A stretch of DNA of 64,000 nt from NCBI GenBank assembly GCA_026929865.2, contig CM049403.1, forward strand, positions 9,462,001 to 9,526,000, written 5' to 3'. The position numbers and the translations under genes were made by a program. Under the pieces are notes generated by a model. The model saw nothing but the letters and a program-made list of their open reading frames with translations, was not told the DNA's origin and did no database searches. How positions within the stretch are numbered: the first letter of the stretch is position 1; each line of letters starts with the position of its first letter. This DNA comes from Hyperoplus lanceolatus (lineage: Eukaryota > Chordata > Actinopteri > Uranoscopiformes > Ammodytidae). Below, piece by piece: positions 4,267 through 62,440 of the stretch.

Positions 4267-7200
4267 TCACCTGGGGGAGCGGGCGCTGGCCATTCTGCGC
4301 TCAAGTGAAGCTCCTGTTCTCATCCACGCCTCCTGATGGGCATCTGGTGCCAAGTGTTGATGGGTGCTGGACCTTTGACACATACCATGCTTACTGGGGC
4401 TATAGGAGTGGCCGCCATTTTTACTGGGGCTATGGGAGAGGCCGCCATAGTAACTTAGGCTATGGGGGAGGCCGCCATGCTTACTGGAGAAAGCATGACC
4501 ACCGGGCTTACTCGGGCTGTAGGAGAGGCCTGTGTCAGACTGCTCCAATTCAGACGTAGAGAGCCTGCGCTGCAGCATCTCCCTGCCGTGGCGTCTGGAC
4601 CCTGGGGAGTACACACAGTTTTCTTCCCTGTAGCGCATGTGGCCACCATATTTACTAGGGCTATGGGAGAGACCGCCATGGTTACTCGGGCTAACGGAGC
4701 GGTCGCCATGGTAACTTGGGATATGGGAGAGGCCTCTATGTTTACTGGGGCTGTAGGAGGGGCCTGTGTGTGACTGCTCCAATTCAGACGTAGAGAGCCT
4801 GCGCCGCAGCATCTCCCTGCCGTGGCGTTTGGACCCTGGGGAGTACACACAGTTTTCGTCCCTGAAGCGCTTGGAGCGCGGGTGGCCGTCCCCGCACAGC
4901 TCCCTGTGGCGTTTCCTTCGGGCGGAGCTGTGGGGCGACAGGGCGAGGGCTGCCAGTGCCGAGGAAGTGTGGAATCTGCCGGCCTCTGAGCTCTTGGCAC
5001 AGTAACGGCAAGGGGCACCGTGGAAGGGAGACGACTTGTTTTGGCAGACCAACTTGTGGTAGAGTTTGACAAAGCCCTCGTCGAGCTCCTTTGGCGAGCA
5101 ATGGACACCGCGGCTCGACAGCACGGAGGAGTCGAAGGAAAGGTGCCGCCGAAGCCCGTGACGAGTCCGACCTGCTGAGGCCTGGTCCCACTGAGCTGTT
5201 GGCGGCTGTGGCTGGGGGGAATGGAGGCAGAGCAACCTCAGTGGCACTGCTGGCTTTCGCTGAGGGGGAGAAAGCGACGTGGAGTACCCGTTGGTGTGCG
5301 GTGAATGTACGCCCAGAGGAAGCCTTCTTCTAGACCTGAGAGACGGGTCCGGGGATGCTCTAGCAGTGGGTAAGTCAGGTTTTGGAGGACTGACAGAGTA
5401 GGAGCAGGTCTGCTCTTCTGGATGGGTTTCCTCGGGAGACGAGACCTGGGAGACGGTGAAGGTCTCGTTCAGAGAGATGGCGTCTGGTTGCAGGAACTCA
5501 GAGGGGTCGGAGAAGTCCATGACGAGGATAGGTTTGTGCTGCTCTCTTCTAGGTGAGCCTCCCATCCTCCCAGGAGACTGCAGGTTGGTGACTACCTTCA
5601 TGGGAGACCAATGGCTAGTATGAGCCCTCGATGAACTGCCCCCCCTGAGCAGCGCCTTGCTGGATGCCCTTTCTAGATCGACTTTGTTGTTCCTCAGACT
5701 GATGTCAAAGGTGGTGTTGACATGACTGGATTTCATTTTGATTGAACGTTCAAACATGTGAAGAAAACAAAGGGTCATACAGAAAATAATGATGTCACAC
5801 AAAATAGAAATCACAACAAAATACATATTTATAAAAACTTGATGATTTGGTTGACATGTCCGAAACGGGGAAGAAGTGCAATTATTTAATCCCACCCCTT
5901 CTCCATGAGTCAAGTTATTAATTATATTAATATGAAATATATAGTAGCACTTCTTGAATATTTATTTAAATTACTCAAATGTAAATATATTAAAAAAAAA
6001 TAAGAGGTGAACTACGGACAGAATAAATCCCAATTGATAATCAAACACCTTCAACCCTGTGCCCTGTGAGAAGCATTTCCTTATACCTTCTGTTTGACTG
6101 CCGTCGCCATCTGCGGTACCTCCTCAGCACCGAGTCGGCGGCCTCATAGACTTGCTGCCTGCGCCAGACTTGTCCCAATCGACTGATCATGCTGGGGTAG
6201 AGCTCCACCAGAGACGAGCTGTGACTTCTCAGAGTCATTTCCAGCTGCTCATCCTGGTCCTCTGGCTGAAGCTCCGACAGGTTTCTCTGACTCTGGTCCA
6301 ACGAGCTCACAGTCAGCTGAGTCATGTCACTGCTATCCATACCTGTGGGAAGAAGACAAGAGGGGAAAAAAGCGTCACCTAATGTTTAAGCAACAAATTA
6401 AAAAGGTGCACTATGCAGTTTCAGAGGTTGTTTAACAGTTGCAGAGCCTGCAGTAAGTTTACAAAACATATTTACTCCACATGTAATTCTTAGTATTGAA
6501 TAATTCTATCATCATAATTCAAAACCAAATCACTGAGAGACATCTGGAACCGAACTCAGGAGTAGAATAAGTTTGGAAACAAAACTGTGGGCCATGCTGC
6601 TGTAAAAAACATTAACCAGTGAAACAGTCATTTTCAGGTAGCTTTTTAAACTACAAATAGTGTTCCAAGGATCCAATTTTCCTACAAATGTAAATTGTCC
6701 TGCCTTGGTTGTTGGCAATTCAAACGTTTTACCTGTTGCTTTATTGTTCGTTCCACTATCCTCCACAGAAAGCGGGCCCATGGAGACACTAGAGAAACAA
6801 GTCTCATCGGCTTCACCATCTTGAAGCGTAGAGTCCAACTGTTGAAAATAACCACAATTTATCAAGACAAACTTAAAACATTTGAGACAGAAGTGTTTTA
6901 AGTGAATGCAGTTCATCTACCCGAGATTCTTTTCTTCCACCACAGCCCAGGAATGCCCTGGGCTGTGGTGGAAGAAAAGAATCAGATTAATGAATGTACA
7001 ATTAATAAAAATATCTGTAATTTGCAATGTTTGTTATGGGGTTATGAATTATTGCCTCCTAATGATTGCTCTCTCAAATCCATCAGGCTCTGAGGAGAGG
7101 GAGAGCGTTTCATTAGAGAAGAGGCACATCGTCTATATTTAATATGTGAATTCCATGAGGACTTATTTCAGTTTGTGTCGCCGTAAAATACGTTCAGTGA

Positions 7201-12883: not shown

Positions 12884-17577
<4,694 letters not shown>

Positions 17578-20154: not shown

Positions 20155-23100
20155 CTACTGTTCATCTGGTGGTGGTGAAGTTGGAATAGGTGGTGGAGCG
20201 TCCTGTGGTGGTTCCATACCTCCAAAGTCATGCCTCCTGTAGTGGCGAATATCATACAACAAATCTGAAGCTGTTCTCTGTTTTAGTGAAGTAGAGGAAA
20301 GATATGATTGTTTTATTGGCTGTTTGGTCAGGGGCTTGTCAACTTGTGATACATTGTCATCAAAAAGACGAGATGCACCATTATCTAAAATTTCAGCCCT
20401 TGTGTCCCACTGTCTTCTGTCAGAAGACATGGCTGTTAGGGCACTGAGGCCTTTCTTTTCCCTATTCTCCTCAGAAATAGCTCTCAAAATCTCATTTGTT
20501 CCGCCAGATGAGTTGTCAAACTTGTTAAGACCTCTGCTGGATGCAAGAGAAGAAGTATTGGCACTAGGAGATGAGTGTTCATGCCATGGTGTCACATTTG
20601 CCGTACCTCTGTCTGGTTTAACTTTGCCATCACTAGGGTATGGTGGGCGAAGTTCTTGCTCTGCAGGTAAAGCCTGCTGTGGAGATGATAAGCCTCCATC
20701 CAAACTTCTCCTCGTACTGGAGATAGAAGGGTCTGATATTTGTCGACCGACACCAGTCCACCTTATCTCAGGTGGTAGGTCCACATATGTTGTGCGACCA
20801 GACCGCTCAATCATTTTCTCTACTACACCATCAAAGTTCTTATTGAGAACTCCGCTTGGGGAAAGAGATGTATTTCTATCTCCCACACCATGGAATAGAC
20901 CTTCTGGGGCGAAATTTACTATTTCAGCCCCTGTATATCTTTCTTTTGCATGGCCAATAGTTTGCCCACTGAGGAATAGAGAAGTACTTGGTGGTAGTGA
21001 TGAAGCTTTGATAATTGAACGCTTGTATGTGACTAGAGAGTCATTGTCTGTCATTCCTGATATATTTGACGTATATATGCTTTGTTTTACAGTCTGTCCT
21101 CTCACCTCATTTTCACTCTCGCTGCAGGAAGATGGGGATCTACTTTGCTCTGGTAATGGTGCCTTGACATTCAGACGCCTCTTAATGCGTGGGACTCCAT
21201 GGCTAAGGTCAGGAGCACTGTAGTCTATCGTGTAATTCTCACTGTTTGAGCTGGACGATGCTTCCCTCTGTAACGGTGCTTTAATGTCTAAAGCCCTCCT
21301 GATATGCGGGATAGAGGTGAGACTCAAATTAGGCTGTATTAAGTCTGAATCCTCTTCCACTTTTGAGGGTTGGCTTTTCAGCTCTACCACTGACTGATCC
21401 AGTTTGACATTGACAGCATGAGACACATATACAGACGTATGATCCAGGTATGGTGCCTTATCAGTTCCTCTCACTCCTTTACCTGCATGTTCTGTTAATG
21501 TATCATCATGCTCACTGCTAGAGGAGAAATTGGGCAGTGTCTTTAATGTTGGTGTAGCAGAAGACTTTTCAATGACCTTGTAAGAGGGGCGAGAGTCAGG
21601 TGGAGGTGATGTTGGCAGATTTGGTGGCTCAGGTGAATGCGATGTAATTTGAAGACGCTTACGGAAGCGTGAGACGCCAAGATTCATTGTTGCCCAACGT
21701 GACTCAAGTTCTGGGTTTTTTTCTAGTGTTTTGCTAATGTCGTCACTTGTTGTTTTGTCCCCCATGTGATCTGTAATAACTCTATACTTTTCCAAATGTA
21801 AATTGTGATCGGTGGTTGGATTGCGAGGAATGCTAGTCAATAGGGTCCTTGAAGACTTAATGAACTCCTTTTCTGTTGACATTGATTTGGTAGATACTCG
21901 GATTCCGAGATCATCGTGTCTTTTGTTATCATCCTCGCTGTCCCTTCCAGAAGAGCCTGGTTGTGGTGATGGGGCTTTGATATCCAGACGTCGGTTGATG
22001 TAAGGGACACCCAGACTCAATTTTGGCAACTGTGTCTGCACAGGTAGGTCTGTAGTCCCACCTTCACTCTCATCACTGCTTGAAGATAACTCAAGTGGTG
22101 ATGAACGAACCTTGATATCTAGACGCCTATTGACGCGGGGGGCACCTCTGGGACCCAGGTCAGGCCATCTTGAATCTGGATTTGGTTCTACCGATGTTGG
22201 GGGGGTGCTTAAATCTTCCATACCCTCTTGCTCTTCTGAGCTGCTTGAAGAGTAATAGGGACTAAGTTGGATCGCTTCCTCTCTCTTTCCTACCACTGTA
22301 TGGTTTGTACTCACATTACTCAATAATGAATCAGGAGGTGGTGATGGGGCCTTAATGTCCAAACGCCTCTTGAGGCGAGTCATATTACCAAGATCAAAAG
22401 CAGGCCACTCTGTTTCTGGAACATGACTTATTGTTTGAGATTCTTGAAATGAGATCCCTGCAATTCCTGCAACCCCTTGCCTCTCCCTCTTTGTGTGGTG
22501 GGTTGTTTGATCTTCACTGTCACTACTAGAAGATGAATCAGAGGCCGGTGATGGTGCTTTGATATCTAGACGTCTCTTGATCCGTGTACTATGCTCAAGA
22601 TCCAGAGCGGGCCACTGTGTTTGTGGGTCATAGCTTACAGTTTGAGATACCGTATTTGAAAGTCTTGCAATGTACAACTCCTCTTGCCCCTGTTTCTTTA
22701 TGTGGTTGGATATTTCATCCACACTGTTGCTACTAGAAGAGGTATCAGAGTCTGGTGATGGTGCTTTGATATCTAGACGCCTTGTAATGCGTTTAGTACG
22801 CTGAAGATCTAGCAAAGGCCATTGTGTTTCTGGAATACGACTTGCTGTTTGAGATTTTTGAAATGCAAGTTCTGCAGTGTTCACCTGCCTTGGCCTTTCT
22901 TTGTGGTGTGTTGTTTCATCCTCACTGTTACTACTAGCAGATGAATCAGCCTGTGATGGGGCTTTGATATCTAGACGCCTCTTGATGCGTGTAATATGCT
23001 GAAGATCTAGGGCAGGCCACTGTGTTTTAGGGTCATAGCTTACAGTTTGAGATACTTTACTTGGAAGCCTTTCAATGTCCTGCACCAGTGTCGTTATGCC

Positions 23101-26100
23101 ATTAGATGTTTCAACCTCACTGTCGCTACTAGAAGATGAATCAGAGTCGGGTAATGGTGCTTTGATATCTAGACGCCTCTTGATGCGTGTAGTATGCTCA
23201 AGATCTAGTGCAGGCCACTGTGTTTCTGGAACATTACTTTCTGTTTGAGATTTTTGAAATGTAAGTTCTGCAGTGTCCACCTGCCTTGGCCTTTCTTTGT
23301 GGTGTGTTGTTTCATCCTCACTGTTACTACTAGAAGATGAATCAGCCGGTGATGGGGCTTTGATATCTAGACGCCTCTTGATGCGTGTAATATGCTGAAG
23401 ATCTAGGGCAGGCCACTGTGTTTTAGGGTCATAGCTTACAGTTTTACTTGGAAGTCTTTCTATGTACAACTCCTGCCGCACCTGTTCCTTTTCGTGGCTG
23501 GATGTTTCAACCTCACTGTCGCTACTAGAAGACAAATCAGAGTCTGGTGATGGTGCTTTGATATCAAGACGCCTCTTGATGCGTGTAGTATGCTCAAGAT
23601 CTAGTGCAGGCCATTGTGTTTCTGGAACATGACCTGCTGTCTGAGGTTTGTGAAAAGCAAGCTCTGCAATGTCCGCCTTTTTTTGACTCTCTTGGTTGTG
23701 TATTGTTTCTTCCTCGCTGTCACTACTGGAAGATGAATCAGATTCTGGTGATGGGGCTTTGATATCCAGACGCCTCTTGATGCGTGTAGTATGCTCAAGA
23801 TCTAGTGCAGGCCACTGTGTTTCTGGAACATGACTTGCTGTTTGAGATTTTTGAAATGCAAGTTCTGCAGTGTTCACCTGCCTTGGCCTTTCTTTGTGGT
23901 GCATAGTTTCATCCTCACTGTCGCTACTAGCAGATGAATCAGCCTGTGATGGGGCTTTGATATCTAGACGCCTCTTGATGCGTGTAATGGGCTGAAGATC
24001 TGGAGCAGGCAATTGTGTTTTAGGGTCATAGCTTACAGTTTGTGATACTTTACTTGGAAGCCTTTCAATGTACGACTCCTGTACCAGTGTCGTTATGCCA
24101 TTAGATGTTTCAACCTCACTGTCGCTACTAGAAGATGAATCAGAGTCGGGTGATGGTGCTTTGATATCTAGACGCCTCTTGATGCGTGTAGTATGCTCAA
24201 GATCTAGTGCAGGCCACTGTGTTTCTGGAACATTACTTTCTGTTTGAGATTTTTGAAATGTAAGTTCTGCAGTGTTCACCTGCCTTGGCCTTTCTTTGTG
24301 GTGTGTTGTTTCATCCTCACTGTTGCTACTAGAAGATGAATCAGCCGGTGATGGGGCTTTGATATCTAGACGCCTCTTGATGCGTGTAATATGCTGAAGA
24401 TCTAGGGCAGGCCACTGTGTTTTAGGGTCATAGCTTACAGTTTTACTTGGAAGTCTTTCTATGTACAACTCCTGCTGCACCTGTTCCTTTTCGTGGCTGG
24501 ATGTTTCAACCTCACTGTCGCTACTAGAAGATGAATCAGAGTCGGGTGATGGTGCTTTGATATCTAGACGCCTCTTGATGCGTGTAGTATGCTCAAGATC
24601 TAGTGCAGGCCACTGTGTTTCTGGAACATGACCTGCTGTCAGAGGTTTTTGAAAAGCAAGCTCTACAATGTCTGCCTTTCTTGGCCTCTCTTGGTGGTGT
24701 ATTGTTTCCTCCTCACTGTCGCTACTAGAAGATGAATCGTAGGCCGCTGATGGTGATTTGATATCTAGACGCCTCTTGATGTGTGCAGTATGCTCAAGAT
24801 CTAGGACAGGCCACTGTGTTTCTTCCATTTGCTCACAACTAGAAGATAAAGCAGGCGGTGGTAATGGTGCTTGACGCTTTTTGGTAAGTGGAATATGCTC
24901 AAGATCTAGGGTAGACCCATTTGTATCAGAATAAATATTTGCTGTAGATTTTTGTAGTGGAATGTCCACCTTTCCTTGCCTCAGTGTGTGCTTTATTTTT
25001 TCCTCCCCACTATCACCACTAGAAGATGAATTGGAGTCTAGTAAAGGTGCTTTGATGTCTAGACGTCTCTTAATGCGTGTAGTATTCTCAAGATCTAGAA
25101 CAGGCCATTGTGGCTTCATGGCATCATGGCTTACAGATTGATACTCCATATTTGGAAGCCCTTCCATGCCCACCTCTCCTTGTTCTTTCTTCTTTGTGTG
25201 TTTTGTTGTTTCATCCATACTCTCATCACTAGAAGATAAATCAGAAGCTGGTAACGGGGCATTGATATCCGAATGCTTCTTAATCCCCTGTGTACTGGAG
25301 GAGTGTTCTAGTTTCACTGAAGGTCTGATGGAGTCTAGACCATGGATCTGCTGTTTAAAACCAGCATTGTTTTGAAAGCGAACACCAGTGACTTCAGGCT
25401 TATTGAGGTTACTTTCTACATCCTCTTCCCATTCTTCGTCTGAGTTCACAGTGTAGTGCGTAGGCCCGTCCTCACTGACACATGAGCTGGAGCTGGACAC
25501 ATCATCCCTCTTCTGTTTATCTGCAGGGAGCGCCACACTCAGTTTTGAGTCATTATAGGAACCACTCACACTGTTTGACCTTGTAGATGTGCTTGGAACA
25601 GAATCACTAAATTCAAATTGTTCTTCATTGTCCTGCCATTCATCAGGGGATGTCAGCTTGGTTTTATTTGTATGTGGTGACCAATTTGTAAAGGGTTCGG
25701 AAGGAAATCCAGGAATATCCGTTCTGCCCTGGCTGGAATTTTGTGGCACCTCAAGTTCTCTAGCTGTTGAGAAATCAGATCTCTGCTGAACAGAATCCTC
25801 TGCAAGTTTAGGAGTATTGGGTGTTGCGTGGTCTCTCTGGATAATTTGGTCCTCGTTTAATACTTTGTCAGACAGTGAAGAATCTGAGCATGAAGACAAG
25901 CTTCTCCTCTTCTCAAGCTCAGCAGGATCTGCGATGTGTTCAAACTCTACGTTGTGTGAGTGGCCTGCATCGATGACACCTGAGAGGCCTCTGCCATGGT
26001 TATCATTTGGAGGGCTGTGTCGAAAGCTGTTTTCACTCCCTGAATCTCCAGCCGCATGTGTATCCTTTGTAGCCTCAGTTGCTCCACATTCAATCACAGC

Positions 26101-29100
26101 ATCATGACTGATGCTTTCACTGGCCACGGTATCATAATACGGTACATTGTTGTCTACTCTATAATCTATAGTGCTGAATGTGACTCTCCTCTCCCTGTGA
26201 GCTCCTATCTCCCCTTGTTCATTGTCATCGTAGTAGGCCTCATTGTCATATTGTCTTTGTTCAACAGCTGAGACAGAGTTGGTCACAGAGGAGCTTTTCT
26301 TGGTGGTGATCCTTCTCCAGAGAACATCTATACAGGGTCTTGCAAATACCCCTAGAATAAAGGCTATCAGAAATGTGATGAAAACAGACAGACAAACAGC
26401 CAGAGTCAAGTCCGACTGTGTAGCTCTCTGATTCCGCTCCTGACCTGTCCTATTTGGCGATCCTCCTGGGATTATTTGTCGGCTGGCTCCGGGTAAACTT
26501 CTAGTTTTTCTTCGTGCTCCTCCTATTGTACTGATTTGGAGGTTAAAAACTGACACAACTTTGTGTTTTTCAGACACACACACATATAGTCCTGTGTCTC
26601 TCTCTGTGACGTCATTGATGAGCAGACCAGCCTCAGGTAGGCTCTCAGATGTTTGACCACTGGGCGTCCACAACACTGCATCTACAAAAAAGACCACATA
26701 GACATGTTGGACTGACCTTCATTGTTATATATGTATAAAGTTATGTTACACTTTTTTCACTGTGTTACCTTCTGAGGAGCAAGACAGCAGTATCTCAGAG
26801 CCTTTATAGACCGTCAAATCTTGGTGGAGATCTGGCCTGTTTTCAGCACTTAAACAGTTAAGATTATCCTCTTCCAGCTGTAGCAAGTCTCTGCCTGACA
26901 GGATGGAGGGGGAAGCACACACCACACTCCACACTTGCAGGCCTCTGCTCCTGTCATAGGCCATCTGCCTTCGTAAACTGTGGGCACTGCAATCACACTT
27001 CCACCTGTTGCCAGCCAGTATAACATCTGCCCCAATGTTACGAAGACTAAGGTACATCAAAGGATGGACGCTCGTCAACAGGTTGAAGCTCAGATCAAGG
27101 ACCTTGTAGGGGAACAATATGGACATACACCAGATGTTAAGACAAGTAATTTGATTGCCAAAACAATTGAATTAAAAGTACATATTATGCTAATTTTCCA
27201 GTTCAAATGTGTATTATTGTTATCTTAATGTAAAGCACTTTGGATACCTGCTGGTTGCTGTAAAAGGGATACATAAATAAAAGTGTTGATTGAATTTTTG
27301 ATTTTTGTTTTATACTAGAAGTGGGTTTCATGGTTTTTTCTTCAAAAAATAAGGTATTTTTCACTATTAACTCTTTCCATCCTTTTTCTCCCTCTTTCTG
27401 AAACGCTTCGTTTAAGCACCTGCTTCCCCCTTCCCGAAAAGTCCAGGCTGTATTGATTGGCAAGATTCACGAGGACATTTTGACTGCTTGTCTAAGTGAA
27501 ACCATCTCTTTGGCCTTAGGTGGGGCTACTGTATGGGGGGAATAATATGCTAATGAGCTGCAGGCTGTTGCATCACACTCTCTCTGGCCTAAACAGCCCA
27601 AAAGAAACTGATAGGGTTGTCTTATTTCAGCTTGTATAGGCTGGTTAGGACATCAAATACCCAAATATGCATGCACATAGAAAACGTTTTTTATGATATG
27701 TCCCCTTAAGTTATTCTCGCTACATTATCTTTTAATTGGACAATACGTCTCTGGAAATGACAGGTGAGCAAAGAATGTGGACTTCTCAATATTCTGTGCA
27801 TGTTTTCAGAGAATTAGATTAAATTAAAAACAGTGTTACCCTGAGCTGGGCTAAATTCTGGAACGTCTGTGGGTGGAGACTTGTGATGAGGTTATGTTGT
27901 AGGTGTAGCTCTTTTAGCTGTCGAAGGTGGCTAAGGTCTTCTGTTCGTAGATCGGAGATCCTGTTGAAGGATAGTTGCAGAACCTGTATCAACTCACAAG
28001 CTTCCAGCCCTGGTGAGAGAAAATAAGATATGTAATTAGAACTCCACAATAACCTATAAGGGGCTGGCTCCTGAAGGAAGCAAGGAAAAATAATACTTTA
28101 TGTTACAGGTTTTCGGTCATAATAGCAGATGTCGGTCAGTGTCTCGTCTTCTCAGTCCTGTACAGCTTTACCCTTTTTAATGGAATTTGTAAGGTAGTTG
28201 AACTGCTTATCTTTAGCTATGAAGTTCATTTGTTTGCATTAACGCAGTTTTCAATGTTGAGAAGAAATCATGTAAACTACAGGCCTTTCTCTCGCTCTCC
28301 CTGAACTTGGAGATAGTGAATACTGAAAGTCTCCAAATCAGTGAACACCCTCTTCCTGGAATATAAATCCAAATTCCCCTGGCTTATTTATTTTCACTGT
28401 GAACATTCTTACAATTTAAATAATTAGGGGGGAATTTTTCTGTGCTGCTTAGTCTGCCTTGCTGTATCCCCCTGTTGGCTAGCCGGAGACCATCTCCCTG
28501 AGTGTGCTGGGCTGAAGTTAGGCACTGTGGGTCTGTGCTTCATTAGAGAGGCACCGAGGCTTCTGTGAGCTGAATACCAAACAGGAAAGAAGACTGACTG
28601 TCAACACAGCTCTCGCTAAGTATATGGGCTGTCCACACATGCCTTTTAAAACCACCACAGTCAATGCATTTCAACGACACACATACGTATGTTCAGCCCA
28701 GCAAAAGGAATTCTTTGAAAAACCATGATGCAGGGGGAAAAACAAAAGTTGTACTGCGTGTTTACACCTTTCCTCAAGCCACTGGAATGTCAATAAAAGC
28801 TGTGGCTGCCTGAAGGGTGTACAGTGTCATTATCTTGGGAGGTTTAATCATTTCTGAGTCGAGCAAAGTACAAAAGATAAAGGATATCAATGAGAGGGTT
28901 TGTTTATATGTGAGAATCTCAGAAAAGACAACAATGCTCACTGTTAAGATTTCTCCTACGATATAAACAAATAAGCTGTCCGCCTTTTAAGCCTTAAAAA
29001 AAGTTTAAAAAGTAGTAAACCAATATTATGCCTATTGTATTTCACGTCTGACTGTTAGACATTTCTCAAAAACATTGTTGGGGGCAATTAAAGGTGTGTG

Positions 29101-31480
29101 CATCCGTAGACTCTGACCCTTTACTATCACCCATTATCTGCAATCACACAAAAATGTTTCTAAAGATCGGAATTTATATGATCATATTGTCCATTGGTTC
29201 CTCCCCTGAGAGATCAGACCCTTGTAGTGGTTCACAAGATAAAATCCCGGAAAGAAAAAAGAATCAACACAGAGTTAAAGTCACCTAATTATCCAAAATC
29301 TTTGCTTTGAGTGTGGCAATGCCAGGAAAATGTATTGAGATGACACAATCTGAAAAGCTAAGAGACAAAATCCCTCAACTAAATGGATTTCTGATGAGTA
29401 TAAACGTTTCAGAGCCACTGGTTAGGTGGCAACAAGGATAGCAGCAAACGGTAGCTACTTCCATACAGAAGGTGATATCTAACCAAAAACATTGCACTTG
29501 ACATAACATAATAACGTTCTTAACACAAACAGAGAACACCATTTTGGCTGGGGTGTGTCAGCTGCAATAAGGTTGAAATGCATTCTTTGTGTATGTTTAC
29601 CTTCCATTTTATACACTTTTGAGATTGTATTGACGCATCAATAATAATGATAAAATAATAAACATATATACGTGATCAAATTAGACTGATCACTTACTTA
29701 AGTCAAAGTTAAAATACCAAAGTATAAGAATGTAAGTAAAAGTATTTTCTAGCAAAATGCACTTAAAGTATGAAAGTTAAAGGAGAAGTAAGTGATATGT
29801 TTAGTTAATATAAGTATAATATCACACTGTATTCATGCAGCAATCGCTTTAACAATATGAGCAGTTCATAACACAGGTCTGCAAGTCATTCAGCTTTGAA
29901 GGATTTGCCAGATACAATTTTGGGTATCATGCTCGTTTTTATCCAATCAGGAGACAGAGCCCTATAAAGAGGCGGGTTTCTGTGCCCGTTAACGATGACT
30001 CGCTGCTCTCCATCGCGGCACTATCTGATGAAGACGGTTGCGCGTTTACCTGGTGGTGACGTACGGACAAGGGAGAGGACTGCTAAATGCAGTCACTGAC
30101 TGGAAGTTAGCTAAAAGGACCATACTTCTCCTTTAAATCACTCAGAATGCCAAATTGGAACCCCATTCATTGTGTTTAGCTATGGAACAATCAAGGTCCT
30201 GATAGACAATTAATATACAGTATATTTTTACCCTATGTGCACAAAAACACACAATAATCTCTCCGCAAACTAATTTGTGGGGACTTTCTGTGGGTTCTCC
30301 TATTAGTTTTGTTGTGGGGCAATTTACTATGTTATCATTCTGATAAGTACGAATAACTTAAAATTCCAGGAGGGCTTCACACAACTCCAGCCTGAGCAGG
30401 TCTAAAGAGCAACATTACTGACAACACCTGTAAGGCTCTGTAAGCCTTTGATGTAGAACAAGTTAAAAAAAAGTACAACATTTCCCTCTGAAATGTGGTG
30501 GAGAAGAAGAAGACTGTGGTGTAAAGTGGATATAAGGACAAGATTTGAGTAAATGCACTTACTGTATTTGCTTTCCACCACTGATAATATAACACCAACA
30601 GAGGCAATTCTGCCTTATGTGTACTTTTACTAAATTAAATTGTGAAGGTCAGGCTATAAATAGTTTGACAAGGTGTTTTAGCTACTTTTAATTAAGTAAA
30701 TTATCCAAATGGTTAAAAAGGGCAGTCCACATTTGCTCTGTGAAAATGGTTCATGGATAAAAAAGGCTTTAAAAAATGATTTTTGAGTTTAGGAATAGAC
30801 TCCACTTCCAAGCACTGCATACATGCACATGACTGATGTGGAAATGTTTGAGATAAATATGTGAAGATAGTCCAATACCAGAGTGTAGGCTACATTCTCG
30901 CAAGAAATCTATCCCAAGGTGCCACAGTGGCAGAAAAAATAAGTTACAACACATTTACATGCTTTCCTTATGCTGAGGTCACCGGAAGCAGTGATTATTG
31001 TGCTGTGACGTTGGTTTATATACGGGTGTGTATGACCACTGGCACTGACTCACCCTTGGGGAATTGCTTAAGCTGATTCCTCTCAACAGATAACAGCTGT
31101 AGGGTGGGGGCCCAAGACATGCATCTGCCCCAAGGTCTCGAGCGAGGCACATGTCTTCTTCCTCTACCGACATAAAACCTTCCTCCCAGGTTTCTCTCCA
31201 CACACATAGACAGGTGTGTGATACTGTTGTTCCCCAGCCATACAGTCCTGAGGTGGTAATGTGGTCGGTCCAGTGTTACAGAGGCAAGGAGGTTGTGAGA
31301 CAAGTCTAGTTCTTTGACAGTATCGTGGATGTGTAGTGGCACAGAGGATAGGCCAGTGGTGGAACAGTTCAAAAGGGAGTCCCTCTGACAGGTGCATGGC
31401 TCCGGACAAGCAGGTAGGGATGAGGAGGGGGCGGCGAGCAGCACAACAGCCAACACTAGCCCCTGTATTGCTGCTGCCAT
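20155..31480 (-). CDS. lrrc66: LRRC66-like giant LRR/Ig transmembrane protein with repeated cytoplasmic tail
   Basis: Four coding exons join in phase: 31054-31480, 27840-28009, 26769-27102 and 20155-26681, giving 2485 residues (human LRRC66 has about 880). The ATG at 31480 was chosen because an acceptor CAG lies just upstream (about 31487), making the earlier ATG at 31501 intronic. Domains in order: signal peptide (1-22); a cysteine-rich LRR N-cap (PACPEPCTCQRDSLLNCS); leucine-rich repeats with LDLSHNLL, LQLSFNRI, LHLQHNLI and LDLSFNLL; an LRR C-cap (GNRWKCDCSAHSLRR); one Ig-like domain ending DTGLYVCV; a transmembrane helix near 402-423; and a cytoplasmic tail of about 2060 residues with about 20 tandem units around KRRLDIK between residues 850 and 2150. 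The name rests on position between DCUN1D4 and SGCB, orientation and domain plan. Function is unknown. The repeat tail has no counterpart I recognise. Confidence 0.85.
21150..25110 (-). repeat. Coding tandem repeat of about 200 bp (WPALDL...KRRLDIKAPSP...SSSDSE), about 20 copies
   Basis: The RRLDIK core occurs exactly 16 times (near 25055, 24756, 24558, 24358, 24158, 23957, 23758, 23558, 23357, 23161, 22965, 22769, 22560, 22352, 22110 and 21975), with diverged copies at both edges (RALDIK, RRLNVK). The spacing in the homogeneous part is 196-209 bp, or 65-70 codons. A unit reads TQWPALDLEHTTRIKRRLDI, then KAPSPDSD, a run of serines, DSE and a variable spacer. Two subtypes alternate, EHTTR and QHITR. 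Copies near 24558 and 23558 are offset by exactly 999 bp, showing a higher-order duplication of about five units. Confidence 0.97.
27225..27300. repeat. Dispersed repeat tail in an LRRC66-like intron
   Basis: The phrase TAAAGCACTTTGGATACCTG followed by TAAAAGGGATACATAAATAA resembles the 3' tail of a retroposon family common in teleosts. Only this tail is recognisable. The family name is uncertain. Confidence 0.35.
28010..29776. other. LRRC66-like first large intron, left half: no feature recognised
   Basis: No exon with consistent phase and no clear transposon was found. A somewhat GC-richer patch at about 28430-28620 has no open frame. The flanking coding exons (27840-28009 and 31054-31480) join directly in phase, so no missing coding exon is required. 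Confidence 0.5.
29777..30136. mobile_element. TTAA-type MITE, 360 bp
   Basis: A perfect 14-bp terminal inverted repeat is present, TTAAAGGAGAAGTA at 29777-29790 and TACTTCTCCTTTAA at 30123-30136. The outer TTAA on each side could be a target-site duplication. The interior is non-coding and includes a GC-rich patch near 30000-30065. It lies in the intron between LRRC66-like exons 31054-31480 and 27840-28009. Confidence 0.75.
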
Positions 31481-33503: not shown

Positions 33504-36344
33504 CTAGTGAGCTTTTCTACAGGGGTTATCTGAAGTCTGGCAGCCCATGTTGGGATATTTCACCTGCACGCGGAACAGAGTCCCGTCCGCACACATGCAC
33601 AGCTTGTAGCGTTCCATTCCCTCATCGAAATACACGACTCCTGCGGAATTAGGGATGCGCGAGGCATTGAACATCACTGATCCATTGAGGACGATGCTGT
33701 TCTCCTGCCAAGACAAATGCATAACATTAATGAGTTGTTCACTCACAAGTGTTTGCAAAGCTTTATTTAAAGAGACAACAATTTTTTTTTTGTTTTTTTG
33801 TTTTAGCAGAAGTGGGAACACGTTCACTCCTCAAGCCCAGTTTCACACAGTCAAGCCATATTAACAGGACATGTCACTTACAGCCCTAAGATCGATGCCT
33901 CCGCCCATTTTGAACTCCACAGTCCGGCCCATGATGTTGACGCCCTCATTTCCACGAATAATAGCCTTGCTGTCCCCTTTAATGGTCAGGTCAGATGCAG
34001 CACTACTGGTGATCTAACATTTGGGGACAAAACATGAGCTTACTATAATATAATTTCCACATGTGTGTGTAATAAACATAAACAATAATACTGTATAATA
34101 TATATCACTCAGACTAACCAGTGAAAGATTGATATTTGATCTTTTTTCATATTGCTCCCTTTATTTTGTACCCTTGTAAAAACACTGCTGTAAGTACATA
34201 CAGTATTGGTAAATCGCAAACTTCACCTTTACATTTCCAATCCGGGCCTTTCTAATCAGGTACTTATTCTGAAGATAAACCAGGATTGTTTTGCGGTTCC
34301 CTACGTTCAGCAACTGAAAACTGAATTTTGGGTCTAAACTCCACTTTACACTGATGATGCCCTGTGTGTGGGGGACACACAGGGCATCATGCTTCATTTG
34401 TTCATTGTACAAAGTTTCTAAAATTTACATTTATTTACCAATCAATCTGTTGTATTTTAGTCATTTGTGTACAGGTTGTTAAACTCCAAAATGATAAGTG
34501 AATTGTTGCTCTGAAAGCCTACAGCTCCCAGTGGTGATTAGCATTATACACACCCTTTCCGTGGAAGCCTTTTTTACACTCAGAACTTTGACTCCTTTGG
34601 GCAAATGGAACTCGTGGTTGTCGAAGTCTGTGCTGAAGTATGTCTTCTGTGTACGAGGATCTGTGAAGGTAATGCCAACGTCGCTGACCACCAAGGTCTT
34701 GTCCTTCTCCACACTCAGCTTAGTGGTGCCTTGCTGGAACACAACCTGGAACAACACACATTAAACATTTGAAAATAGAGCAGCTGTGTCAGGTTCTCAG
34801 TTGTTTAAAATGCTTAGGCTACGATGGTAAAAGTTCTCTGTGTTTCTCACGGGATTATTGTTGCCGACCAGGGTGAGGTCCTGGTCCTTGCGGCCTCCCA
34901 CTGTGCTCTTGTGCAGCGGGTGCACGATGCCCATGTCCGCCTTCTGTTTAAAGCGCAGCAGGCCCGACTCGTGGAACTCCATACTGTCGCACCCATTCGG
35001 ACCGATACGTATCACTGTCCATATCACCAGAGTTATCTAAAGGACGATTCATGCAATAACACACAATGATCATTATGTGTTTACCATCGTTTTCCTGATA
35101 TTAAAGGTGGAGTCAGCTCTTTGTTGTCAAAATAATTTCTTGTCAAAATCAGTGAATAAACCCTGTTCGCTGAAAACCAATCCGGTGTTAATACACAGCC
35201 TAGGCTCTATAAATGGGCATGTTGCTAGCAACGGTGGGCCCCATTTGTTTACCATAACTTTGTTTACATGCTGAGTATTAACACTGGATCTTGTTTCAGC
35301 ACACACATGCAGTAAAGACAGGTAGAGGATTGACAGGAGATATTCACTGATTTTGCCAACAAGCTTTCTCCAGAATCGCTGACTCCACCTTTAAGCGCAG
35401 CCAATTGACATAGACTTGTAGCACTCACAATGAGATTGATTAAAGCGAGGAGGAAGAGGAGGACAACGATGCAGACAGCCATGTTTCCCTTGCGTCCTCT
35501 CAGCCCCGTCTTATGGAGGCGTTCTTCTTCGATGGGCACATAGCCCGCCTTGAAGTTACTGTTGTGTTCCTTGTTGATATTTCGTCTCTCTATTGCCTTC
35601 TCTCGCATGGACTTCTTCACAGGCCCATTGGAACTCTCCTAGAAGGCAAAACAATCTCTCAGGGCATGGCACTAACAGCTATACTTTTAGCAGAGAGTAA
35701 GGTAAGGTATCAATAATTATAATGACCCTTTAAAATCTAATTCCCAGCTCCATACACAGATTATATGATTACATAGGCTACTTTCCTTTAAAAATTTGTG
35801 TAATTTACACTTAAGAGTCTGTATACTGGTGTATGCTTAATGCAAAATATGTTTTTCATTGTGTATGAAACTATGCACAGATCTACACTAACAGTCCGTA
35901 CCCAACTAGCCCTGCGTTGGTTGGAATGCATCTCAGTTAAATGCCCCGCGTCTGTCTGTCTGTGTGTGGCCATAACTAAAAATAAACTGCAACTAATTTA
36001 GCAGCAAAACGAAAAGAAACTTAAATGTCTCACTAGCATACAGCTCATGGTGTCTTTATATTCGAAACATGTATTTGCTGTCAAACAGTAAACCTGCTAC
36101 AGTGATGTTTTTATTTGTTCTTCTGCCTATAATAACGAAGAGAAGGCCATTATTTATTACACTGGTATTATAGGCTATACACGGGGGGCCGACGACGAAG
36201 CCAATAACATTTATATTTATTACATTAAAGTGTTATTCTGGAACATTTACTACAGAGTTCCTAACAAACAACAGCGCGAAAAAACGAAGTAAAAGGCGAG
36301 AATAACAACAGATATTGAACATAACGGACCTGTTCAGACGCCAT
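33504..36344 (-). CDS. sgcb: Beta-sarcoglycan (SGCB)
   Basis: Beta-sarcoglycan is a single-pass type II glycoprotein of the sarcoglycan subcomplex that links dystrophin to the muscle membrane. Six exons join in phase: 36330-36344 (MASEQ), 35429-35638, 34851-35036, 34554-34745, 33882-34013 and 33504-33704, giving 311 residues (human 318, also six exons). A short basic cytoplasmic N terminus (KKSMREKAIERRNINKEHNS) precedes a transmembrane helix at about 57-82 (GNMAVCIVVLLFLLALINLI and on). The extracellular part has N-glycosylation sequons at N252 (NGS) and N258 (NAS). The C terminus carries the family cysteine cluster C281, C283, C300 and C307. A MITE fills most of intron 2. The gene is divergent from SPATA18, with 1398 bp between the start codons. 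Identity is near certain. Confidence 0.97.
34354..34390. other. Perfect 16-bp hairpin in SGCB intron 4
   Basis: Positions 34354-34369 are the exact reverse complement of 34375-34390, with a loop of five G. It lies in the intron between exons 34554-34745 and 33882-34013. Confidence 0.9.
35101..35394. mobile_element. TTAA-type MITE, 294 bp, in SGCB intron 2
   Basis: A perfect 17-bp terminal inverted repeat is present, TTAAAGGTGGAGTCAGC at 35101-35117 and GCTGACTCCACCTTTAA at 35378-35394. Related, diverged copies lie at about 39505-39793 and 62780-62930. The intron is only 392 bp (35037-35428), so the element makes up three quarters of it. Confidence 0.88.
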
Positions 36345-37742: not shown

Positions 37743-42445
<4,703 letters not shown>

Positions 42446-53574: not shown

Positions 53575-53835
53575 CGTATTACTCATGATGGGGACATGTT
53601 TCTGTTTACATAGTGATATTGTGGGGACGTACCTCCCTTTTGGGGACAAAATGGAAGTCCCCTTAACGCAATAATGACATTTTAGGGTGAAGACTTGCTT
53701 TAAAGTGATGGTCGACTTGGGTTTAGGTTGAGGTTAGGGTTAGGGTAGGGTTAGGCAAGTAGTGGTATGGTTAGGGCAAGTCTCCAGGAAATGAGTGTAA
53801 GTCTATGTAATGTCCTCGGAAGTGATGAAAAGACA

Positions 53836-53918
<83 letters not shown>
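53533..53918. repeat. Dinucleotide-bounded repeat element with TTAGGG-like core
   Basis: (TG)n at 53533-53572 and (TG)n at 53837-53918 enclose 264 bp that contain GGGGACATG and TTTTGGGGACAAAATGG phrases, a GGTTAGGGTTAGGGTAGGG tract at about 53733-53752, and TCTATGTAATGTCCTCGGAA. A related element in opposite orientation lies at 60369-60810. Confidence 0.75.
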
Positions 53919-53919
<1 letters not shown>

Positions 53920-53921
<2 letters not shown>

Positions 53922-56900
53922 TTATGCTTCTGTACAGCTCTCTGCGGGAGAGGAAGTGTTTCTGAGAAGTGCCTGCCTGGGATCTTTCCAGAGAAATAAG
54001 ATGGGCGGCCAGTGTCATGTCTGAGACCACCCTAGGCTTTTCACTGTAGTTTCATTTCTGAGTCTTACACAAAAAAGTTACAGGAAAAAAAGACAAACAC
54101 CCTCGGTCACCCCTTTGCCTTTGTTGTGCCTCAGATCCAACTAAACAAAAGGGTTCACGGAAAAATCCCACTGGAAACATTGGATTGACACAGCCACCAG
54201 TGTCCCTATCGTTAACATTAAATCATTGTGCTGACGACAAACAGCACCCAGCTCCGGATGGCAACAATATATCGATACACTACAAGCAAACACTTTATCC
54301 TCCTGTGCACGTCCCTGCTTGTACTGTATCATGAGGACATGTGCGACATTGAGACATGGCTGTGCATGTCACTGACCCACCAACATAATTGTATACATCT
54401 TTGTTTTATTTATAAAGGAAAGAAAGAGGTATCAGTTAATCAACATACCAGTATAGTCTTCAGTGTTCAAGATGTCGGTGAGCTAATGGTTGCAAGTGAT
54501 TATTTGAATTATGCCTCATTATAATTAATTGTGGTTCAAGGGGGGAGAGGGGGCGGGGGGCTTTGAAGCTCTGCAAAGTAGATATGATGACGTACATGCA
54601 GCAGCAGGATAGCTGAAGCACTGTTTCCTGATCTCGATACCTGAAGCAGTCCTGGTAAATCAAATTCTGAATATTCTTTGTTGTTTTGATATTTCTATTG
54701 CAAGAATAGGAGCCAAAAGTTAAATCCCACCGTGTTTTTTTCTCAGGACTGTGTGGATGTGTACAGACACAGCTTGATTAACACCTTCTGACTTGGGTGC
54801 TGCAACTTGCAATTTGATGCTTTTTATGACATATGTTGATTTCTATGACCTTGACAAGTGCCCACAACAGCCTTATTTATTCTGATAGGAAACTGATTTC
54901 TAATCACTGTACTACAAGTTCCTCTTATCCATTATGCAGAGTCAAAAATCTTTTTGTTGTTTACTATTACTGCCATGGTACGAGTAGCCATTAGTACTGT
55001 TACTGCTTAATGAATGCAGAAATCGTGTCCCGTGTTATTCCTCCATGACTTGCAGCCTCAGTGAGAGCAGGCAGAGAGCTGGAGCAGAAAAACATGGTGA
55101 AAGAGATAGGAGAAGGTGTAAGTGTCAGCACAGGGTATTTAGACAGCAGGGCCAGTCTCTCTGGCAGCTGCACTGTTTTCTCTCCTGGGGGATTAGCTGA
55201 AGTTTCAGGGTGACTGGGAGGACACAAAGCTGATAGCTGTAAAGATGGACATGTCTCATTTTCAGTGAAAACCAAAACAAACAAGAGCTTTCTTTTAGAC
55301 TAAAGATACAGCCTGGACAGACTTGGATGCTGTAGAGGTGTTGATGTTTTTTTTCTATCATCTTTCTACGAAAATCAATGGTAAAAAACACTACTTTTCA
55401 TATGTTTTTCCCAGCAATGGTGGGTGAAGCAATATCAATTTTGTCCAAAGTACTCCATTAAAGGTAAAGGGAGTCCTGCAATCATAATTTGACTTAATGA
55501 CTGATCAGTCTAGTCCATCGACACTGACAGCATTACACCACAGAGCCCTGATGCCTTACCTTAGTAAATCTAACTCTATAAACAACACCATGCAATATTA
55601 ACTGATTATCAGTTTGAAAAAATACTCCCAGAACTCTCAATGAAACAAAAAAAAAATTACAAACAAGAAATAAACAATAGATAGAGAAAATACATTTTGA
55701 GTCACTTCTAAATGCTCCTCTATGTTCCCCAGCTAATCCCACGTAGTCTATGGTCTCTGCCTGTCGGTCTGCTGTTTGATGCTGAGCAGGTCCAGTTACA
55801 TTTGACACTCTTCTAGACAATTTTAGTTTTTTGTTGTTGTGGCAAACAGCTGTGAACCAAAGCAGTAAAGTTGTGATATTTGTAGATAGTTGGGTACCTT
55901 ATGATATATATATAAACTGTGTTGGTATAAAAAATAAATACCTTCAAGGACCTCAAAATTGTAATAAAGTGCAGTAAATGAACTTACAAATAAAGTTGTA
56001 TTCCACTATATGATGCAAAAGATACTCCAAAGCTGCAGTTTGATTAACAGTACAAGTATCGTATCATTACTGATGAGTATAAAACTGTGAATGTTTTTTA
56101 TCCATACTAAAAAAAACAAGCATTCTCGTTCGATTAGCAGGAAGTATGTAATATACTACTTATGATATAAAAGAATATCAACACAATGTATTCTTTCCTA
56201 TTATTTTTTTCACCGCTCTGAGCAACTCTTCCATCTTCTCTGTATATTGCAGTAAGAGATTAGTGTGTGCTACACACAAGTAATTACCATAATTACTCCG
56301 CAATCTGTCTCCATCTGTTGAAGTATACTTCAAATTGATTGAATGTGAATACCTGACCTACTTTTAAAAACCTAACTGGAATACAAATTACTGTTGTCGA
56401 AAAAAAAGTGTTTGACAATTTAAAACCATGTAAATATTGTTGTTGAAATAATATATCATATTCACTCAAATCTACAAAAAAAACTGTCTTAGGAAAAACA
56501 AACTGAACAAAATCCATCCATGAAATATTTCACAAGATAAGTAAAAAACTTTGCCCTGCTGCCAGTGGTGAAAGGAAAGATTTAGGGGGTTCACCACAGT
56601 CATTAAGGTTGACCCTTTGGGGCCCACAAATGTTTGTATAAATTTCCATGGCAATACATCAAAAAGACGTTGAGTTGTTTCATTCTGGAGTGCAGGATAG
56701 CTAACATGGCTAACAAATGAAGAGAAGAAGAACCCTGGGTAGGGTCTATAACAGGAAGCAGCAAGGCAATAAAAAACAAACCGCCCAAAAAGTGAATTGA
56801 TGGTCATTTTATTGAACAGAAGAAAGAAAAAAATTAGTGTGTTAAACTGGAGTTCTTTATGGTAAAGCATTTGAAGGTCATCACTAATAAAGTGCACTTT

Positions 56901-59005: not shown

Positions 59006-62440
<3,435 letters not shown>

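Follow-up and report, generated by a model that had tools for sequence, protein, structure and literature searches.

The receptors LRP5/6 carry the reiterated motif PPPSPxS in their cytoplasmic tail, in five copies, and for receptors of the LINGO1/LRRC4 type, in which leucine-rich repeats (LRRs) are combined with an immunoglobulin (Ig) domain, no long repeat tail is known. A search of the open-access literature found no established function for LRRC66, a further LRR protein, and no title about its function among the matches listed. Most papers whose passages mention the protein do no more than list it; its function is called unknown in a passage of one study (PMC4388690), it is given general LRR roles in a passage of a pig study (PMC7849149), and in a passage on zebrafish larvae infected with pneumococcus it is induced 6.2-fold and described as ‘as yet functionally uncharacterized’ (PMC9858863). 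Here, we describe an LRRC66 gene of the ammodytid fish Hyperoplus lanceolatus (assembly GCA_026929865.2), located in a window of 64,000 nucleotides (contig CM049403.1, positions 9,462,001 to 9,526,000; all coordinates below count from the first base of the window), whose last exon encodes an array of about 20 repeated units in the cytoplasmic tail; the zebrafish induction shows transcription of a fish lrrc66, not of this array. The repeated core is under purifying selection that goes beyond mere copying, and we consider it probable, if far from certain, that the tail is a multivalent disordered docking array which grew by tandem duplication while its core was selected.

A repeat array confined to one exon

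Nineteen units, u01 to u19, numbered by their core leucine, share a clear core, L[DNQ][IV][KT], and two further ones, u00 and a unit shortened by a deletion, are coreless, in good agreement with the about 20 units of the original prediction, a reading of the bare sequence. Exact RRLDIK occurs 16 times in the tail, as that prediction had counted, where shuffled tails average 0.00025 occurrences, and Tandem Repeats Finder (TRF) independently reports a 198-base unit in 12.5 copies (22326-24823). The predicted unit length of about 67 residues holds for the inner units, since spacing from u02 to u14 is 66-69 residues, but not for the remaining ones (39-121 residues); likewise, the predicted span of 21150..25110 is correctly located but slightly narrower than the true extent (Table 1).

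The unit consensus, built from 15 of the 21 units by leaving out the near-copies u08-u11 and the degenerate u00 and deleted unit, reads SxTxSxxPxTQWPxLDLxxxTRIKRRLDIKAPSPxxDSSSSSDSExET. Only the Leu is invariant, with the Pro of WP, both Arg, and the core Ile and Lys conserved at 90% or more. The conserved module exceeds RRLDIK: WPxLDL precedes it, AP follows it, and acidic and serine residues cluster further on. The net charge is basic around the core and acidic past it, and its periodicity is strongest at 33 and 66 residues. Here and below, motif tests cover 20 units, u01-u19 and u00, with the deleted unit left out: behind the core, a CK2-like [ST]xx[DE] is present in 18 of them and SP or TP in 13. 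SYDP[KQ]TQ and LYIERLP reappear in alternate spacers.

The module belongs to this exon. In the 806.7 Mb genome (527 contigs), a pattern for R-[IL]-K-R-R-L-D-I-K, with Arg one and three as CGN, has 12 occurrences, every one in exon 4, and its reverse has none; a wider RRL-D-x-KAP pattern has 15, of which 14 lie in exon 4 and one, on contig 20, reads SSLDIKAP; and a search with the whole unit finds at least 18 places in exon 4 and a single one elsewhere, at E 5. These are minimum counts, from which any motif interrupted by an intron would be absent. No RRLDIKAP-coding sequence was found outside exon 4 in the 807 Mb genome, and none of the 23 viral and 18 prokaryote contig pattern matches to the module profile was confirmed. 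There is no indication of a mobile element or of a shared domain.

Selection on the core

The original prediction argued for selection on a repeated motif from an exact core among variable spacers. That argument does not stand by itself, because the core codons are almost identical in u03-u11 and recent copying could explain the pattern; the selection that it proposed is upheld by the changes within the core codons. Because the 19 units had been chosen by their core, the tail was scanned with a profile of the flanks only, for which u02-u13 served as training set and the maximum of 200 shuffles (3.56) as threshold. This flank-only profile recovered 14 units (u01-u14) and did not recover u15-u19, u00 or the deleted unit. 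On a tree of these 14 units, with each nonsynonymous codon change scored once, the RRLDIK codons underwent 10 synonymous and no nonsynonymous changes (10/0), the ten-codon core (-4 to +5) 16/3, and the codons outside it 59/181; by Fisher's test, both the ten-codon core (p 3e-7) and RRLDIK (p 1.6e-6) differ from the other codons. Since some spacer-end codons align poorly, the comparison was also restricted to the well-aligned neighbours (-17 to +21; 29/56), from which the core (p 8e-5) and RRLDIK (p 6e-5) still differ. When the labels of the changes were permuted, the best six-codon window was equalled or surpassed in 0 of 2000 permutations over all columns (best window LDIKAP, 12/1) and in 2 of 2000 over the well-aligned columns (best window RRLDIK, 10/0).

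Pairwise comparison of the 19 units agrees: the ratio of nonsynonymous to synonymous differences per site (pN/pS) rises from 0.14 in RRLDIK through 0.23 in the ten-codon core to 0.87 in the flanks. Over these units the synonymous component (pS) is similar in the ten-codon core (0.44) and the flanks (0.46), so there has been no overall homogenisation of the core. Because synonymous changes have occurred in the core without amino-acid change, purifying selection on it is supported.

The array has also grown recently. Two blocks of 0.8 kb, u03-u06 and u08-u11, are identical at 769 of 792 aligned bases (97%), with one 6-base gap. This recent growth, the near-identity of core codons in u03-u11 and the loss of the core in two units are all compatible with passive expansion, in which slippage or unequal exchange swelled a disordered tail into an array with no specific role. 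Already disfavoured, this explanation appears rather unlikely: it does not account for core amino acids left unchanged through 10 synonymous changes, nor for the persistence of the core in the edge units u15-u19 despite their unrecognised flanks (these units having been found by their core), and pN/pS in the duplication is also below 1. Between the two copies, about 12.5 differences are synonymous and about 11.5 nonsynonymous, with a pN/pS of 0.27 that lies below neutrality (one-sided p 0.003, equal mutation rates assumed), and therefore the spacers are constrained too; none of the 11 nonsynonymous codons falls in the core, which is weak evidence alone. As a result, the predicted contrast between core and spacer holds in that the core is conserved, but it was drawn too sharply, since the module is wider than RRLDIK and the spacers are themselves constrained.

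Near-identical copies are difficult for assemblers, and it is conceivable that the array was multiplied by assembly or that an internal intron or alternative end removes it, so that the exon is not translated in full. We regard this as extremely unlikely, given the open frame and the pattern of selection, and given that the duplicated blocks differ at 21 codons. Given these blocks, 97% identical, the number of copies in the array is likely to be polymorphic, and short-read assemblies may collapse there.

A disordered tail with linear motifs

AlphaFold, given one unit with 14 others as alignment, returned a predicted template modelling score (pTM) of 0.20 and a mean predicted local distance difference test score (pLDDT) of 66.6, reaching 77-83 at residues 11-40 only, which correspond to the module, and gave no hint of a folded domain. 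Because of the low pTM and of the composition of the tail, with 15% Ser and many charged residues, the tail is probably a disordered chain carrying linear motifs.

No Pfam family scored over its cut-off in single units (15 units searched, with three families reaching E<=1 in one unit each). The best of these matches, AF-4 (E 0.0012, 18.6 bits against a cut-off of 26.9), lies in the serine-rich stretch and was rejected, the other two having E 0.099 (PH_SLA1) and 0.14. Actino_peptide, under its cut-off, was dismissed, as was the sole PDB profile match of a unit (E 0.021), again in the serine-rich stretch.

Proposed mechanism

In the docking-array reading, each unit would provide a short docking peptide, WPxLDL-x4-RIKRRLDIKAP, so that about 19 copies would be presented on one arm; behind most of these lies an acidic cluster rich in serine, a likely target of phosphorylation. 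The copies would stem from tandem duplication, probably by unequal exchange, with the docking core retained by selection in nearly all of them while the spacers drifted. The whole array is presumably translated; each unit would then bind a cytosolic partner, several partners could be bound simultaneously with a gain in avidity, and control might come from clustering through the LRR-Ig ectodomain or from phosphorylation of the serine clusters. More tentatively, and with the balance somewhat against it, this LRR-Ig receptor may recruit many copies of one specific cytosolic partner through its about 19 genome-unique motifs; unequal exchange would alter their number, which may vary from one individual to the next and so set how strong the signal is.

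Several observations weigh against the docking-array reading. Within u02-u13, pS is 0.18 in the core against 0.33 in the flanks, and some homogenisation of the core there is possible. The choice of 19 units by their core biases their pairwise pN/pS, and the 14-unit set lifts most but not all of this bias, its profile having been trained on core-placed units. Single copies are dispensable, since u00 and the deleted unit have lost the core. AlphaFold confidence is low and its secondary-structure read-out empty, which leaves disorder to composition and low pTM. PH_SLA1 reaches 49.4 bits on the whole tail, over its cut-off of 27; with no stretch passing and just the one unit of 15 mentioned above, this was taken as a sum over the repeats. 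Finally, multivalent binding is something that we infer.

Candidate partners

The first candidate for the partner class is a Ser/Thr kinase with an RxLxPhi or D-type docking groove, an assignment that is doubtful. Cyclin RxL motifs, mitogen-activated protein kinase (MAPK) D-sites and capping-protein-interaction (CPI) motifs each fit the array only in part, and it is not assigned to any of these classes; as explanations specific to a partner, they are sub-cases of the docking-array reading, and the probabilities we attach to the readings do not sum to one. Expressions for RVxF, PxIxIT, B56 LxxIxE, the clathrin box and a K[KR]x[KR] nuclear localization signal match none of the 20 units.

In a cyclin-docking array, KRRLDI would be the RxL motif recognized by the cyclin hydrophobic patch and the following SP a site for cyclin-dependent kinase (CDK), here on a membrane tail. 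The general expression [RK]xLx[ILVFM] is present in 19 of the 20 units, u00 being the one that lacks it, but the stricter [RK]xLx[FL] is found in none, the second hydrophobic residue being I or V in all cored units, and SP or TP follows the core in just 13. Cyclin docking does not account for WPxLDL or for the conserved Lys at +3, and it also counts against this partner that a cyclin/CDK on a plasma-membrane tail would be unusual. PVKRRLDL appears as a peptide from the cyclin-binding motif of E2F1 in a passage of one paper (PMC4381256), and KRRLDLE in connection with cyclin was not found in the open-access literature. Overall, cyclin docking is distinctly unlikely.

An array of D-sites, whose basic residues and L-x-I would dock ERK, JNK or p38 for phosphorylation of the following SP, is very unlikely. 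A general D-site expression fits 16 of the 20 units, but it is loose, with 21 matches over the whole tail, it misses u02, u16 and u18, which have a core, as well as u00, and SP or TP is lacking in seven units.

As for CPI motifs, the inner units would bind actin capping protein in the manner of CARMIL and CD2AP and tie the receptor to barbed ends. The relaxed form LxHxTxx[RK]x[RK] occurs in nine units, against 0.0045 per shuffled tail. In passages of the literature, the CPI consensus is LxHxTxxRPK(6x)P (PMC4598739, PMC2897767), significant divergence is tolerated (PMC6249002), the motif has a central [RK]x[RK] whose arginines are required (PMC9282853), the peptides are bound in extended form (PMC2897767) and CPI binding is lost in the CapZ-beta R15A/Y79A mutant (PMC4598739). 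None of the 20 units has a strict match, no more than three of the seven consensus residues are present in any, the relaxed form fails in 11, and the position of the Pro in RPK is Arg or Lys in all 20. Moreover, the His at -8 changed four times among the 14 units, where RRLDIK never did, and the nine matching copies stem from few events. A search of PDB chains with the unit found no capping-protein peptide, but with a motif this short such a search has little power. The chance that the array is of this kind appears to be slim.

Gene model, neighbours and other features of the window

The gene lies on the minus strand (31480-20155), and its four exons, with GT/AG boundaries picked by eye, join in frame to encode 2485 residues and a stop, the length that the original prediction gave. 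The protein consists, in order, of LRRs, an Ig domain, a transmembrane helix and the long cytoplasmic tail. The last exon, said to be 6.5 kb and open throughout, indeed has no internal stop in 2175 codons, where base composition predicts about 120, and the other five frames contain 61 to 214 stops each. Pfam LRR_8 has a match within the first 452 residues at E 1.1e-16, and Pfam ig scores 24.1 bits, above its cut-off of 21.8, between the LRR C-cap and the transmembrane helix. In the genome, a query of 274 residues taken from the beginning of exon 4 matches three places, its own exon and two others at E 0.27 and E 0.62. Near the membrane, YDNEAYYDD (26250-26224, minus strand) and, further on, VPYYD are possible tyrosine phosphorylation sites.

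Table 1. Features of the LRRC66 gene and of its repeat array (window coordinates)
Feature	Position	Strand	Evidence or content
Exon 1	31054..31480	minus	start codon, signal-peptide-like start, LRR N-cap cysteines, first LRRs; splice sites, in-frame join
Exon 2	27840..28009	minus	LRRs; splice sites, Pfam LRR_8
Exon 3	26769..27102	minus	last LRR, LRR C-cap, first part of Ig domain
Exon 4 (last)	20155..26681	minus	remainder of Ig domain, transmembrane helix, entire cytoplasmic tail, stop
Ig domain	26832-26530, of which 26530..26681 in exon 4	minus	split by exon 3/4 boundary; Pfam ig
Hydrophobic transmembrane stretch, residues 402-424	26341..26409	minus	sequence
Repeat array u00-u19	about 21064..25329	minus	TRF, motif and whole-unit matches
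u00, degenerate, core KHSDIN (25261-25278)	25219..25317	minus	whole-unit match E 0.0015
u01 module, core RRLDIK	25009..25107	minus	flank-only profile
Deleted unit, core lost (LDLEHIPLTKKRQAPLPPP)	24853..24918	minus	sequence
u02-u14 modules, exact RRLDIK in all 13	22309..24813	minus	flank-only profile
Duplication copy 1, u03-u06	23851..24648	minus	alignment to copy 2
Duplication copy 2, u08-u11	22858..23649	minus	alignment to copy 1
u15 and u16 modules, exact RRLDIK	21934..22167	minus	missed by flank-only profile
u17 module, core KRLQIT	21601..21699	minus	sequence
u18 (RALDIK) and u19 (RRLNVK) modules	21121..21336	minus	sequence

Open frames on either side match Pfam GATase, Cullin_binding, Sarcoglycan_1, MIEAP and UCH. 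Sarcoglycan_1 (34479-34760) and MIEAP (40279-40554) are both over their cut-offs, and Cullin_binding (16351-16608) is weak, with E 0.003 and a score under the cut-off. We take these matches to accord with PPAT, DCUN1D4, SGCB, SPATA18 and a USP, and the start of DCUN1D4 is presumably near 14.9 kb. The gene lies between DCUN1D4 and SGCB, with SPATA18 beyond. In a passage of one paper, DCUN1D4, LRRC66, SGCB and SPATA18 are named together in a single interval of human chromosome 4 (PMC4388690). Because the architecture of LRRs and a single transmembrane helix is joined to the same neighbours as at the human locus, the identification as the fish LRRC66 orthologue is supported, and the LRRC66-like label of the original prediction was well chosen. 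Human LRRC66 is not known to be described with more than LRRs; mammals may have lost the Ig domain, or it may have gone unnoticed in them.

Elsewhere in the window, a stop-to-stop open frame of 564 codons (4270-5961, minus strand) has short repeats such as SHSPSK.GG, together with a near-identical pair of CVYSPGS[KR]RHGREML[RQ]RRLSTSELEQS, and is possibly a second repeat-rich coding region; no Pfam match over cut-off was found in it. Long CA/TG dinucleotide runs occur at about 14090-14345, 40110-40340, 53760-54030 and 60180-60610, and the window contains no Rfam match at gathering scores.

Comparison with known systems

A motif that has been selected and repeated about 19 times pinpoints the residues that matter and offers a high-avidity bait for a partner, and variation of the copy number within the species, should it exist, would provide a natural range of doses of a receptor docking site.

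Set beside LRRC66, the fish gene shares the LRR ectodomain, the single transmembrane helix and the neighbours DCUN1D4, SGCB and SPATA18, and may differ in its tail of about 20 repeats and its Ig domain. The ectodomain resembles receptors of the LINGO1/LRRC4 type, PDB matches covering LRRs and Ig domain (2id5, query 149-346; 3zyi, query 136-346; among the matches listed, 60 of 254). With the CPI proteins CARMIL and CD2AP, nine fish units share LxHxT and basic residues, while the RPK and the spaced Pro are missing in the fish. In LRP5/6, too, the receptor tail holds several copies of a short motif, in which serines come after SP, although the motif is another one and its five copies stand against about 19 in the fish tail. 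The 15- and 20-residue beta-catenin-binding repeats of APC likewise combine tandem docking peptides with serine clusters along a disordered chain, in a cytosolic scaffold of other sequence. Nopp140 and treacle likewise alternate basic and acidic blocks, but they are nucleolar, whereas the fish protein belongs to the membrane and has a specific core that is conserved.

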